From the NCBI RefSeq assembly GCF_003111685.1, contig NZ_CP022189.1, positions 1,814,001-1,878,000 of the forward strand: 64,000 nt of DNA, read 5' to 3'. Each line of letters begins with the position of its first letter. The stretch's first letter is position 1. Below, in pieces: positions 29,165 through 35,383 of this stretch. Made by a program: the position numbers and the translations under genes. The DNA comes from Alloyangia pacifica. GTDB lineage: Bacteria; Pseudomonadota; Alphaproteobacteria; Rhodobacterales; Rhodobacteraceae. The notes under the pieces are model-generated. The model was not told the origin of the DNA. It worked only from the letters and a program-made list of their open reading frames with translations, and did not search any database.

Positions 29165-29515
29165 TCAGCCGAAGGGGCCGCGGAAGATGAAGAAGGCGCC
29201 GAGCGCGATGAAGCCAAAGCCGACGGCGTGGTTGAGCGTCAGCGGCTCCTTCAGCCAGAAGGCAGAGAAGCCGGCGAAGACGATCAGCGTGATGACTTCC
29301 TGCAAGGTCTTCAGCTCGGCGGCCGAATAGACCCGGTGGCCGAGCCGGTTGGCCGGCACCGCGAGCCAGTATTCGACCAGGGCAATGCCCCAGCTGATAA
29401 AGACCACGGCCCAGAGCGGCGCGCCGGGAAAGCGCAGGTGCCCGTACCAGGCCATGGTCATGAAGAGATTTGAGGCCACCAGCAGCAGGACCGGCAGCAG
29501 ATGCGCGAAGCTCAA
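29165..29515 (-). CDS. DMT-family membrane protein (DUF486)
   Basis: 116 residues with four membrane helices. The family core is FISWGIALVEYWLAVPANRLGH, then SAAELKTLQEVITLIVFAGFSAFWLKEPL and a final NHAVGFGFIALGAFFIFRG. This is the DUF486 subgroup of small DMT-like proteins. Substrate unknown. It is the last of a minus-strand set after two DUF1330 genes, with a 10-nt gap. Confidence 0.9.
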   Translation of the reverse strand: MSFAHLLPVLLLVASNLFMTMAWYGHLRFPGAPLWAVVFISWGIALVEYWLAVPANRLGHRVYSAAELKTLQEVITLIVFAGFSAFWLKEPLTLNHAVGFGFIALGAFFIFRGPFG

Positions 29516-29525
29516 TCGCGGGCGC

Positions 29526-29813
29526 TCACTCGCTGGTTTCGACGATCAGCAACTCGCGCTCCGATGCGCCACGCGCGTGGCCCAGGGCCTCCTGGTACTC
29601 GGGCGAGTGGTAGCAGGCCTCTGCAGCCTCGACCGAGGGGAATTTCGCCACGACATTGCGTGGCCGCTCCTTGCCCTCGAGCTGCACGTAACGACCGCCG
29701 CGGGCGACGAATTCCCCGCCGTGCTTGGCGATCGCGGGACCGGCGAGCTTGGCGTACTTGCCGTAGGCCTCCTCGTCGGTGACGGTGACATGGGCGATCC
29801 AGAGAGCGGGCAT
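29526..29813 (-). CDS. DUF1330 domain protein, second copy
   Basis: 95 residues forming one ferredoxin-like DUF1330 domain: WIAHVTVTDEEAYGKYAKLAG, GGEFVARGGRYVQLEG, then VVAKFPSVEAAEACYHSPEYQEAL. The start forms TAATG with the stop of the upstream paralogue, so translation is coupled. It shares the order of conserved blocks with its neighbour but has clearly diverged, so the duplication is old. Function unknown; dimeric alpha+beta barrels of this type often bind small molecules. Confidence 0.9.
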   Translation of the reverse strand: MPALWIAHVTVTDEEAYGKYAKLAGPAIAKHGGEFVARGGRYVQLEGKERPRNVVAKFPSVEAAEACYHSPEYQEALGHARGASERELLIVETSE

Positions 29814-30097
29814 TAGAGTCCTTCCACGATGACGAGATCGCGCGTCGAGGCGCGCAGGGCGATGGGCAGGATGCGCTGGTATTCGGGTGAGTTGTACCAG
29901 CGTTCGGCGGCGATGCGGCTGGGGAATTCCACCACCACGTGACGGCCCGGCCCCTCGCCTTCGACAAAGGCCTGCGGCCCGCCTTTCACAAGGAAGCGCC
30001 CGCCGAATTTCTCGGCGAGCGCAACGGTTTGCCCAGCATAGACGGCATAGTCCTCGGGGTCTGTGACCTCGATGCGGGCGATCATGTAAGCAGTCAT
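29813..30097 (-). CDS. DUF1330 domain protein, first copy
   Basis: 94 residues, paralogous to the next gene: MIARIEVTDPEDYAVYAGQTV, GGRFLVKGGPQAFVEGEGPG, then VVEFPSRIAAERWYNSPEYQRIL. AGGGAG lies before the ATG at 30097. The two adjoining domains could form a heterodimer. It lies 22 nt downstream of alaS on the same strand and may be read through from it. Confidence 0.9.
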   Translation of the reverse strand: MTAYMIARIEVTDPEDYAVYAGQTVALAEKFGGRFLVKGGPQAFVEGEGPGRHVVVEFPSRIAAERWYNSPEYQRILPIALRASTRDLVIVEGL

Positions 30098-32930: not shown

Positions 32931-33809
32931 CTAGAGCCGCAGTCGCCGCCGTGCCGGCAGGGCCTCGTCGGCCACCAGCCAGAGACCCGAGCCGATCACC
33001 AGCGCCGCGCCGAGACTGGCGCCGACGCCGGGCATCTCGCCAAAGCCGAAAACCCCGATGCCCACCATCCAGACGAACTGCAGGTTCATCAGCGGTGTCG
33101 CCACATAGGCCGGGAGCAGCCGCAACGCCTCGACCGAGACGAAACGCGCACCGAAAAGGAAGAGCGCGTAGCCCGCGACCCAGAGCCAGTCGGCCAGCGG
33201 CATTGGCTGCCAGACGAAAGGGAGCGCCACGCCCATGACCAGCGCCAGCGCGAGGTTGGGCCAGAAGACCTGTGCCAGCGGCTTGCGCTCGCGCCGCGCA
33301 ATGGCGCGGGCGGCGACCATCGACGCGGTTCCGGAAACGGCCCCCAGCAGCGCCCAGACATGCCCCGCATCCACCCCTGCCCGGCCCTCGGGCACAAGGG
33401 CGAGAAGGCCCGACGCACCGAGCGCCAGCGCCAGCCAGGCAGCGGGGCGCACCGGCTCGTCGAGAGCCACGCCCGAGAGCGCGGCGGCGATGAGCGGCAT
33501 CAGCCCGATGAAAAGGAAGACGTCGGCGAAGGGCAGAAGGCGAAACGCCTGGAAAAAGCCGATCGCCGCAAGCACGGTCAGCAGCGATCGCAGCGCCATG
33601 GTGCCCCGGCTCTGCACCCCCAGCGCCGCGCGCAGCGACCCCTGCCGCCGCGCCGCACAGAGCGCGAAGAGCAGCACCAGCGCCGAGGAGACGGCCAGGA
33701 ATTGCGGCGCCGCGTAGCTTCCCGCGATCAGCTTGGTGATCCCGTCAGCAGCGGCGATGAGCGCGGTGTAGAGCGCGACCAGCGCGGCGCCGGCGAGCGC
33801 GGCCCTCAT
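32931..33809 (-). CDS. EamA/DMT-family transporter, coupled to DUF6902-like gene
   Basis: 292 residues with about ten membrane helices in two EamA repeats (AALVALYTALIAAADGITKLIAG at the start; WMVGIGVFGFGEMPGVGASLGAALVIGSGL at the end). Its ATG overlaps the stop of the upstream helical protein as ATGA (33806-33809). That coupling places it in one operon with the FTSGA-repeat gene further upstream. Such transporters export small metabolites or amino acids. Here it could export a product of the two upstream genes, which is inference from position only. Confidence 0.88.
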   Translation of the reverse strand: MRAALAGAALVALYTALIAAADGITKLIAGSYAAPQFLAVSSALVLLFALCAARRQGSLRAALGVQSRGTMALRSLLTVLAAIGFFQAFRLLPFADVFLFIGLMPLIAAALSGVALDEPVRPAAWLALALGASGLLALVPEGRAGVDAGHVWALLGAVSGTASMVAARAIARRERKPLAQVFWPNLALALVMGVALPFVWQPMPLADWLWVAGYALFLFGARFVSVEALRLLPAYVATPLMNLQFVWMVGIGVFGFGEMPGVGASLGAALVIGSGLWLVADEALPARRRLRL

Positions 33810-34879
33810 GCCCGGCCCGCCCGGGCGAAGCCCTCGAAGAAGGCGTCGAAATGCGCCGTCTCGCGGGCCATGAGGTCGAGCAGGTCGATCACCCCGGGCG
33901 GCAGCGCCCCCTCCATGCGGCGGCGCATCACCGTCCAGTCGGCGCTGCGCCGCCCCTTCATCGCAAAGAGCGCCCGCGACAGCTCGCGCAGCGGCGCCAT
34001 CCGCCGGGGCGCCCGATCGAAGTGCATCCGCCCCGGCTCCAGTGGCTTGCGAAAGGGCTCCTCTCCTGCCAAGGCCAGCTGCCAGTTGCAGACGAGGAAA
34101 TCGTGGTAGCCGTCCTGCAGCGGGCCCTGCGGGTCCGTGTCGACATGGAAAAGCTGCGTCTCGCGGCTCAGCCAGCCGGTCCAGAGCGGCGGCGGCAGCT
34201 CCCCAGCGTAGCGCAGCGCAATGCAGACCTCGGCCAGCAGGTCGGAGTTCTGCTCGAGAAAGGCAAGGTTGCCCGCGAAGTGCAGGCTGGTCAGTGCCTC
34301 GGACTCCAGCCGCGGATCGCGGCGCCCGTATTCGCTGAGGTAGAACACGATATGGGTAAGCTCGTAGGCGGCCTTCTTATTCGGCAGCGCAAAGATACCG
34401 GGCCGGGCGCAGAAGCCGCGCAGCCGGTCCTCGAGGCCCAGATCGGCCGGACCGGAGACCCCCCGCCGCGCCAGCAGCCGCCGCGCTTCCATGCGCTGCA
34501 GATCCGACAGCTCTGCGCCGGGCGCAGCGGACGCGGCTATGCTCTGCGCCATGCGCGCCCCGGTCTCGCCCGGCATGCCGAGGTCTTCGAGATCGAGCAC
34601 CATGGACAGCAGGAAGCGGTAGTATTGCGGGAAGAAGGCCAGCCGCGCCTCTGCGCTGGCATAAAACTCGACATGCGGCAGCAGCGCCCGGGGGCCGATC
34701 CCGGCCCATGTCGCCGCGCCGGTGCAGTCGAGGATGTTGAGCAGCTCGGCGTTCTCCTTGAGCCAGAACACATCCTCCTCGCTGCGCCGATGCTGCGCGA
34801 AACAGGCGATCAGCGCCGCGATGCGCGTGTCCGGGTCGGCGATGCGCGGCACCGGGTGGAGGGCGATGACATTGGACAT
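33806..34879 (-). CDS. All-helical protein of unknown function (DUF6902-like)
   Basis: 357 residues, predicted soluble and almost all helical, with no signal peptide. Notable conserved-looking segments are EEDVFWLKENAELLNIL (34-50), AYELTHIVFYLSEYGRRDP (171-189), LHFAGNLAFLEQNSDLLAEVC (199-219) and DGYHDFLVCNWQLAL (256-270), with several His/Asp/Glu in the middle of helices. I believe it belongs to a Rhodobacterales family named DUF6902, but that is recall. The clustered His and acidic residues could bind a metal. It lies 85 nt after the FTSGA-repeat gene, across a hairpin, and is translationally coupled to an exporter. Confidence 0.65.
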   Translation of the reverse strand: MSNVIALHPVPRIADPDTRIAALIACFAQHRRSEEDVFWLKENAELLNILDCTGAATWAGIGPRALLPHVEFYASAEARLAFFPQYYRFLLSMVLDLEDLGMPGETGARMAQSIAASAAPGAELSDLQRMEARRLLARRGVSGPADLGLEDRLRGFCARPGIFALPNKKAAYELTHIVFYLSEYGRRDPRLESEALTSLHFAGNLAFLEQNSDLLAEVCIALRYAGELPPPLWTGWLSRETQLFHVDTDPQGPLQDGYHDFLVCNWQLALAGEEPFRKPLEPGRMHFDRAPRRMAPLRELSRALFAMKGRRSADWTVMRRRMEGALPPGVIDLLDLMARETAHFDAFFEGFARAGRA

Positions 34880-34925
34880 GCGGAGGGCCTTTCTGCGCGG
34901 GCGTGCGGGAAACAGGCAAGGGACA

Positions 34926-34950
34926 GGCGGGCACCAAGACGGTGCCCGCC
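34926..34950 (-). promoter_or_regulatory. Intergenic hairpin without T-tract between repeat gene and DUF6902-like gene
   Basis: A perfect 10-bp stem (GGCGGGCACC / GGTGCCCGCC) with a 5-nt loop, 15 nt past the stop of the repeat gene and before the next start. No T-run follows on either strand. It is therefore more likely an mRNA-stabilising or partial-termination element than a full terminator. Confidence 0.6.
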
Positions 34951-34964
34951 CGTGCGCGACGGGC

Positions 34965-35300
34965 TCAGGCGCCCGATGTGAAGAGCGCCGTGGCGTCGCC
35001 GGCGCCGAGCTCCGAGCGCAGCGGCGCAGCGCCGGAGGTGAAGAGACCGACCGCCTCGCCCGCGGCGGTCACCGGCCCGGCGCCCGAAGTAAAGAGCGCC
35101 GCACCCTCTCCCGAGGCGATCTCGACGCCGGCAGGTGCTGCCCCGGAGGTGAACATCTCGATCCCGCCGCCGAGCAGCGTTTCGGCCTCGGCAGGCGCCG
35201 CGCCCGAGGTGAACATGGCGCAGCCCTCGCCGCCGAACATATCGGCCTCGACACGGTGCTGCGCTTCTGCGGTCACGAATTGCTTGAGTTGAGCAGTCAT
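34965..35300 (-). CDS. Small protein with five FTSGA repeats, candidate multi-copy peptide precursor
   Basis: 111 residues from the ATG at 35300 (AGGGAG upstream); an upstream in-frame start at 35327 lacks one. An N-terminal segment without repeats (MTAQLKQFVTAEAQHRVEAD) is followed by FTSGA at residues 30, 50, 70, 87 and 107, with spacings 20, 20, 17 and 20. Each is preceded by Met or Leu and, except the last, followed by Ala/Gly-Pro. The protein ends exactly on the fifth FTSGA. There is one Cys (27), no signal peptide and no membrane span. I may be recalling a related Rhodobacterales DUF (DUF6749), unverified. The layout suggests a leader plus repeated cores, but a structural or binding repeat is also possible. 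Confidence 0.75.
   Translation of the reverse strand: MTAQLKQFVTAEAQHRVEADMFGGEGCAMFTSGAAPAEAETLLGGGIEMFTSGAAPAGVEIASGEGAALFTSGAGPVTAAGEAVGLFTSGAAPLRSELGAGDATALFTSGA
34968..35213 (-). repeat. Five-copy FTSGA-coding tandem repeat
   Basis: Five copies of the FTSGA codons at about 60-nt period (one interval is 51 nt). The five 15-mers are all different in DNA: Phe uses TTC or TTT, Thr ACA, ACC or ACT, Ser TCG or TCC, Gly GGC or GGG, and Ala GCC, GCT, GCA or GCG. The peptide is nevertheless identical. Confidence 0.9.
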
Positions 35301-35335: not shown

Positions 35336-35383
35336 TGCTTCAGGGTTTCTTGCGATGATTGCTTCAGGCAATATGGTTTCTTG
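35336..35383. promoter_or_regulatory. Direct repeat and dyad upstream of the FTSGA gene
   Basis: TGCTTCAGG and GGTTTCTTG occur together twice, once fused (35336-35352) and once separated by six bases (35360-35383). The second copy also holds the dyad ATTGC-N5-GCAAT (35358-35372). Both lie 36-83 nt upstream of the repeat-gene ATG, a position suited to an operator or activator site. Confidence 0.45.

Follow-up and report, generated by a model that had tools for sequence, protein, structure and literature searches.

Results

Organization of the locus

The window, by which we mean the whole 64-kb stretch of Alloyangia pacifica DNA that was analyzed, carries on its minus strand a short gene with a regular internal repeat, a gene of the DUF6902 family, and a gene for an EamA-family membrane protein. 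The features discussed below are as follows, with positions counted from the first letter of the window:

32931..33809, minus strand: EamA-family membrane protein, candidate exporter and optional component (PF00892, E 2e-13)
33806..34879, minus strand: 357-aa protein of the DUF6902 family, all-helical by prediction and proposed to modify the cores (PF21843, E 8.8e-154)
34103..34105, minus strand: His259 codon (residue kept in 119/120 DUF6902 and 3/3 DUF6895 proteins)
34229..34231, minus strand: Glu217 codon (kept in 119/120 and 3/3)
34241..34243, minus strand: Asp213 codon (kept in 118/120 and 3/3)
34352..34354, minus strand: His176 codon (kept in 118/120 and 3/3)
34923..34953, minus strand: hairpin between the precursor and enzyme genes, arms GGCGGGCACC / GGTGCCCGCC (intergenic MFE -41.5 kcal/mol)
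34965..35300, minus strand: putative multicore precursor, an ORF of 111 aa with five FTSGA cores (ORF reading and pentamer count)
34968..34982, minus strand: core 5, FTSGA, residues 107-111, followed directly by the stop codon
35028..35042, minus strand: core 4, FTSGA, residues 87-91
35079..35093, minus strand: core 3, FTSGA, residues 70-74
35139..35153, minus strand: core 2, FTSGA, residues 50-54
35199..35213, minus strand: core 1, FTSGA, residues 30-34
35214..35300, minus strand: head of 29 residues, leader-like and core-free, with GGAGAACTTCC just before the start
35340..35383, minus strand: conserved upstream block AAGAAAC-ATATTG-..-AAGAAACCCTGA (alignment of 13 upstream regions)

An earlier sequence-only reading had described the repeat gene as a 29-residue head with five FTSGA units, ending on the last of them, and reading of the ORF confirmed this anatomy. 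The units start at residues 30, 50, 70, 87, and 107, giving spacings of 20, 20, 17, and 20, and their synonymous codon choice differs among the five copies, which rules out a fresh DNA duplication. Any pentamer reached five or more copies in 2 of 20,000 residue shuffles of the protein, and among the open frames of the window this is the sole one in which a pentamer is present at least four times. The protein had no match in Pfam or NCBIfam at E 0.1. As a protein-search query it yielded 9 of 95 candidates (61 to 150 aa), and genome scans were therefore used instead.

The adjacent helical DUF6902-like protein and its ATGA overlap with the EamA exporter, at 33806-33809, were likewise as first described. 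Nine neighboring proteins were scanned as well and comprised alaS, xth, BolA, glutaredoxin, two DUF1330 proteins, DMT_6, GNAT, and an M24 peptidase, the last being of housekeeping type and the only peptidase nearby in the window. A lasso cluster at the locus was rejected, as the EamA protein, the DUF6902 protein, and the nine neighbors include neither a B1/B2 protease nor an Asn-synthetase-like cyclase.

Two noncoding elements flank the repeat gene. The hairpin downstream of it, strong and GC-rich, may serve in mRNA processing or in setting stoichiometry; values of -10 kcal/mol or below were obtained for 105 of 117 scored intergenic regions, these being raw MFE values without a shuffled baseline, from GC-rich DNA of unequal lengths. 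For the upstream side, 14 of the 18 DUF6902 loci of the genus were given to the alignment and one was dropped with its start masked, leaving 13. Judged by its conservation among these, the block at 35340..35383 is probably a promoter or operator.

Pairing of the repeat gene and DUF6902

PF21843 was found in 22 of 61 relatives, with one match (G039/L022) weak and below the cut-off. Among 394 genomes of the family, DUF6902 was present in 108 and the repeat unit, represented by a profile (A3) built from 26 two-unit pieces, in 98. Both occurred in 96 genomes, the unit only in 2, and DUF6902 only in 12 (Fisher p 2.5e-75, on the assumption that both draws of 394 comprise the same genomes, given the same request and matching handles where listed). 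The two unit-only genomes, G089 and G414, had single weak matches (3.7e-4 and 8e-4 per genome), weak enough for chance among the 286 DUF6902-free genomes. Nine of the 12 DUF6902-only genomes carry an array with a divergent core at the locus (L104, L107, L116-L122); in G181 the gene lies at a contig end, and G330 (L103) and G082 (L123) are without an array. The sequence-only reading had proposed a leader with multiple cores and a dedicated partner, and the partner was indeed constant: homologs of the repeat, far from occurring mostly without the helical gene, came with DUF6902 in 96 of the 98 unit-positive genomes.

We then considered the arrangement at 122 DUF6902 loci (L001-L124 without the weak partial matches L022 and L023; contig-end fragments G181 and G412 and the second fragments of G223 and G363 were left out before counting). 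For each locus, the array was defined as the most repetitive upstream frame and the core as its most frequent pentamer. A same-strand tandem array ORF lies upstream of DUF6902 at 119 of the 122 loci, with a gap of 10-342 bp (median 67 bp). All but two of the 119 arrays, i.e., 117, beat the best of 50 shuffles. At L057 (G232) the array is partly masked, and the unit profile matches just upstream of DUF6902; L103 and L123 have no array upstream of the gene.

The third gene was less regular. Searching with the EamA protein of the window (phmmer, E 1e-4), we found that 94 of the 122 loci have a same-strand relative downstream, overlapping by ATGA in 86 of the 94. None was found at 26 of the 120 loci with enough flank, where a very distant exporter could be missed. 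EamA was therefore dropped as an essential part, and with it the exporter as a fixed component of the earlier proposal; the core of the system consists of the precursor and DUF6902.

Concerted variation of the core

Core statistics cover 119 arrays, leaving out L057 (masked), L103, and L123; the spacing counts also omit L099 and L106, and the pentamer register was set by hand in 24 rows. The arrays contain 2 to 20 copies, so that repeat number varies as the sequence-only reading had asked to be checked, and use 49 core pentamers, headed by FSSGS (21 arrays), FTSGA (14), and FTSWS (13), with single cases such as FTNWC, MMCCS, LSPSC, and YIAGL. The spacing is 20 or 21 residues in 637 of 703 cases. 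Spacings of 8, 13, and 17 are also seen, the first of these indicating that a minimal unit of eight residues is tolerated. Among the 702 units with automatic register, G stands six residues ahead of the core in 676, F is the first core residue in 663, and P is second after the core in 552. At least 70 of the 119 arrays terminate exactly on a core. The linkers are of low complexity.

Within arrays, identity averaged 0.98 for the core, 0.61 for the six residues before it, and 0.33 for the linker (87 arrays; 32 were left out for a hand-set register or too few usable copies), while core identity between arrays was 60%. Synonymous variants made up 39.8% of identical core codon pairs versus 35.3% in the linkers. 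This variation among identical core codons indicates that the cores are kept alike at the level of the protein rather than by recent copying of DNA. A FastTree tree built from DUF6902, with 117 labeled rows, requires at least 63 core changes, a number to be read against a floor of nearly 48 for so many core types, many weak branches, and the lack of a shuffled baseline. By eye, L051 and L076 are exceptions that mix two cores.

A lack of conservation of FTSGA had been named in advance as evidence against a peptide system, and the pentamer does vary. All copies of an array change together, however, and this concerted change favors a peptide product. It is also unexpected, next to drifting linkers, if the array were a structural repeat of the beta-solenoid type with a period of 20-21 residues, for which DUF6902 would be a chaperone or binding partner that modifies nothing. 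The dominant period would suit such a coil, and an AF2 model of the precursor shows short strands over most of the repeats; yet the mean pLDDT of that model, 44.7, supports no fold and cannot decide on a solenoid, and spacings of 8, 13, and 17 as well as two-copy arrays fit a solenoid coil poorly. We regard the structural repeat as improbable.

The DUF6902 protein and its conserved residues

The DUF6902 protein matched PF21843 with 512.1 bits (cut-off 27), its closest named relatives coming from Alloyangia and Salipiger. It also matched PF21836 (DUF6895) over residues 29-232 (E 2.6e-22, 80 bits, cut-off 23.8). With both curated cut-offs exceeded, DUF6902 is, by profile comparison, homologous to DUF6895. 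Its structure model has a mean pLDDT of 91.3 and is predicted to be nearly all helical. A sequence search of the PDB with A1 gave no match at E 1, and Foldseek against the PDB none at E 0.001. The folds ranked by VIA-align include protein prenyltransferase beta, a metal enzyme; this is an (alpha/alpha) toroid, a fold also seen in class II terpene cyclases and C3d, and a candidate fold for DUF6902.

An alignment with three DUF6895 proteins identified Y172, H176, G185, D213, E217, Y258, and H259 as common to the two families. In the 120-row DUF6902 alignment, which like the tree leaves out the truncated L121 and L124, only two proteins lack both H176 and D213: L103, with R and S, and L123, with Q and L. 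These are also the only two without an array, a coincidence of 1 in 7140 by chance, computed post hoc. The site residues have been lost together with the precursor.

This co-loss bears on a further alternative, in which the pentamer would be a short linear motif, the array a decoy or scaffold that captures DUF6902 or a third protein by means of it, and DUF6902 a noncatalytic regulator. The tight gene pairing and the low-complexity linkers would be as expected of such a scaffold, but the same four residues (H176, D213, E217, and H259) are common to two DUF families and disappear along with the array, and as many as 49 forms are not expected of a motif that binds a single receptor, short of co-evolution between the two. 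We consider this alternative quite improbable, and the protein-binding repeat with a partner, which the sequence-only reading had left as its other option, is less likely than a leader followed by cores.

DUF6895 relatives

PF21836 was found in 13 of 398 genomes of the phylum, eight of these within Rhodobacteraceae. Six PF21836 loci were read. In three (L125, L126, and L128) the gene is accompanied by small ORFs that are duplicated or repeated; such ORFs are missing at L135 and at the subcut-off matches L136 and L137. A scan of genome contigs with the proteins of L125, L126, and L128 gave 35 DUF6895 loci, among them Rhizobium (the same protein as L125), Streptomyces, Dictyobacter, Acidobacteria, a cyanobacterium, Gilvimarinus, and Bordetella ansorpii. 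By eye, a small precursor-like ORF, mostly of 60-115 aa, lies directly upstream at 20 of the 35. These ORFs often end in motifs like GYVLAWERYVLVVA, and that of Gilvimarinus contains a duplicated unit, ELAGPWYIYKE/ELVGPWFVLKE. Eight of the small ORFs scanned against Pfam and three against NCBIfam gave no match.

The locus L162, from a Streptosporangiales MAG, has a DUF6895 gene that follows three others. One encodes a Transglut_core3 protein (41.6 bits, cut-off 26), which scores 32.5 against the lasso B2 model, just below its cut-off of 33. The second encodes an Asn_synthase protein (47.4 bits against a cut-off of 21, with lasso cyclase models far below theirs), and the third a small RRE-like protein that hits actinodefensin-associated protein B (47.7 bits against a cut-off of 45). 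Judged by these matches, L162 is a lasso-like cluster. This fits the title of a paper by Shi et al. (ACS Catal. 2026, cited in PMC13352647), which names a DUF6895 protein as a lasso-peptide epimerase. The statement that no known RiPP enzyme is recognizable at the Alloyangia locus is then no longer quite true, to the extent that this published title identifies the function of the homologous family.

Discussion

We interpret the repeat protein as a multicore RiPP-type precursor matured by DUF6902, a reading to which we give a probability of about 72%. It has the parts of a gene-encoded precursor, with a putative leader and core regions, and a candidate modifying enzyme that is tied to it genetically across genomes and loci. 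DUF6902 in turn shares with the three aligned DUF6895 proteins the family-conserved residues H176, D213, E217, and H259, for which a catalytic role is putative.

Under this interpretation, a leader of about 29 residues would precede 2 to 20 short cores in a ribosomal precursor, and each core would be immediately preceded by a local recognition element, the segment G-[DE]-x-[VT]-x-[MLA], and is usually followed by [AG]-P. DUF6902, a protein of the DUF6895 superfamily that is predicted to be helical and may be toroid-like, would bind the units and modify the core at a site including His176, Asp213, Glu217, and His259. The pattern of the unit requires an enzyme that recognizes the precore segment and is indifferent to the side chains of the core on which it acts. 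Proteases of the general cellular pool may then release many copies of one identical short peptide, to be exported by EamA in most lineages.

The likeliest single reaction of DUF6902 is C-alpha epimerization, an assignment that we make tentatively and at somewhat less than even odds. It draws on the reported activity of a DUF6895 relative and on the absence of an invariant core side chain: no core position is invariant across the 119 arrays, as expected for a backbone reaction blind to side chains. The lasso epimerase MslH performs acid/base epimerization with two His/Asp pairs and Ca(II) (PMC10406935) and makes the His/Asp/Glu/His set of DUF6902 chemically reasonable. The mechanism type is the kind proposed here, although the folds differ, that of MslH being calcineurin-like and that of DUF6902 predicted nearly all helical.

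Other chemistry on the same kind of precursor is a serious rival, given that 115 of the 119 arrays have one of S, T, and C at core position 3. DUF6902 could catalyze a metal-dependent reaction of Ser, Thr, or Cys (dehydration or the formation of heterocycles or thioethers); alternatively, the mature peptide could be a metal ligand. Cys appears in the cores of several lineages (FTCGA, FTSCA, MMCCS, and FTTSC), the conserved two His, Asp, and Glu could bind metal, and a metal enzyme is among the folds ranked for the model. Against this, the YIAGL core of L120 has no S, T, or C, and the superfamily link points to an epimerase, as reported in a title. We judge such side-chain chemistry possible but on the unlikely side.

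Several known systems resemble parts of this one. The DUF6895 family shares with DUF6902 the conserved pairs Y172/H176, D213/E217, and Y258/H259 within the homologous region, and its frequent adjoining of small precursor-like ORFs. DUF6902 nevertheless stands apart as a Pfam family, has a C-terminal part of its own and a tandem pentamer precursor as neighbor, and unlike lasso systems its locus has no lasso B1/B2/C genes among the scanned neighbors. Dikaritins, cyanobactins, and orbitides have tandem cores in variable copy number, a producer-specific core, and conserved local elements. The array shares tandem cores, variable copy number, a variable core, and conserved local elements with them, but no enzyme of these pathways turned up in the present gene table, and the taxa differ. 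The yeast alpha-factor precursor consists of tandem identical short peptides with spacers, of species-specific sequence. The array resembles it in the tandem identical peptides and spacers. Among the literature matches listed, titles and abstract openings gave no description of the array and DUF6902 as a system.

Beyond the sequence-only reading, the analysis adds that the core diversifies in concert, that DUF6902 is linked to the DUF6895 epimerase family, that natural mutants have lost the site, and that the exporter is optional. The array and DUF6902, recurring as a pair with many peptide "words," look like an undescribed system of small-peptide production. In its most specific form the proposal is a new RiPP class, in which a toroid-like enzyme would epimerize 2-20 copied pentapeptide cores and each lineage would make a homogeneous D-residue peptide as a strain-specific signal. 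We hold that form to be unlikely; if true, the array would be a bacterial counterpart of the yeast alpha-factor precursor, with rapid switching of the "word" between lineages and drifting spacers.

The results provide a functional hypothesis for two uncharacterized Pfam families, and DUF6895 was found in several phyla. The natural mutants L103 and L123, together with the cross-family residues, point to four candidate site positions, H176, D213, E217, and H259. The repeating core makes prediction of the product easy, as every genome spells out its pentapeptide over and over. The family is an abundant marine group, and an undescribed multicore peptide system would be present in about a quarter of its sampled genera (107/393).

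Variation among DUF6902 Loci

Outside the precursor, DUF6902, and EamA genes, two features of the window were recorded:

29165–30097, minus strand: tandem DUF1330 gene pair plus one DMT_6 (DUF486) gene, beside alaS
35340–35383: conserved DNA block upstream of the precursor gene, with repeated AAGAAAC elements

The block is strongly conserved at the equivalent position across the genus. Two arrays at the loci of relatives were exceptions to core identity within one array, mixing FCSWS with FSSLS (L051) and STSC with FSSGS (L076).

Where EamA is missing (e.g., loci L094, L098, and L114), a large frame resembling a dGTPase-like protein lies downstream; it was seen at no fewer than 12 of 26 such loci inspected, which suggests a conserved chromosomal site. 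At two loci (L103 and L123), found without precursor and without exporter, both H176 and D213 of DUF6902 are substituted; these proteins are putative natural loss-of-function copies or repurposed ones.

Small ORFs beside DUF6895

The homologous family DUF6895 was represented by 35 loci from several phyla (L138–L172), three of which contributed the following features:

L146:2458–2577: 39-aa acidic peptide upstream of DUF6895, Streptomyces; C-terminal end AGCIVNNSSDLS
L152:2284–2403: 39-aa acidic peptide upstream of DUF6895, second Streptomyces; C-terminal end AGCIINNSSDIS
L162:983–4606: lasso-like cluster, Streptosporangiales MAG; Transglut_core3, Asn_synthase, RRE-like small protein, and DUF6895

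The two Streptomyces peptides are near-identical to each other and are a putative precursor type differing from the other DUF6895-linked small ORFs. Judged by eye, a small ORF lies directly upstream of DUF6895 at 20 of the 35 loci. These ORFs often share a head that looks helical and a tail of the kind GYVLAWERYVLVVA, and the eight that were scanned matched no Pfam model. They have the look of precursors belonging to a broader family of peptides that is as yet undescribed.
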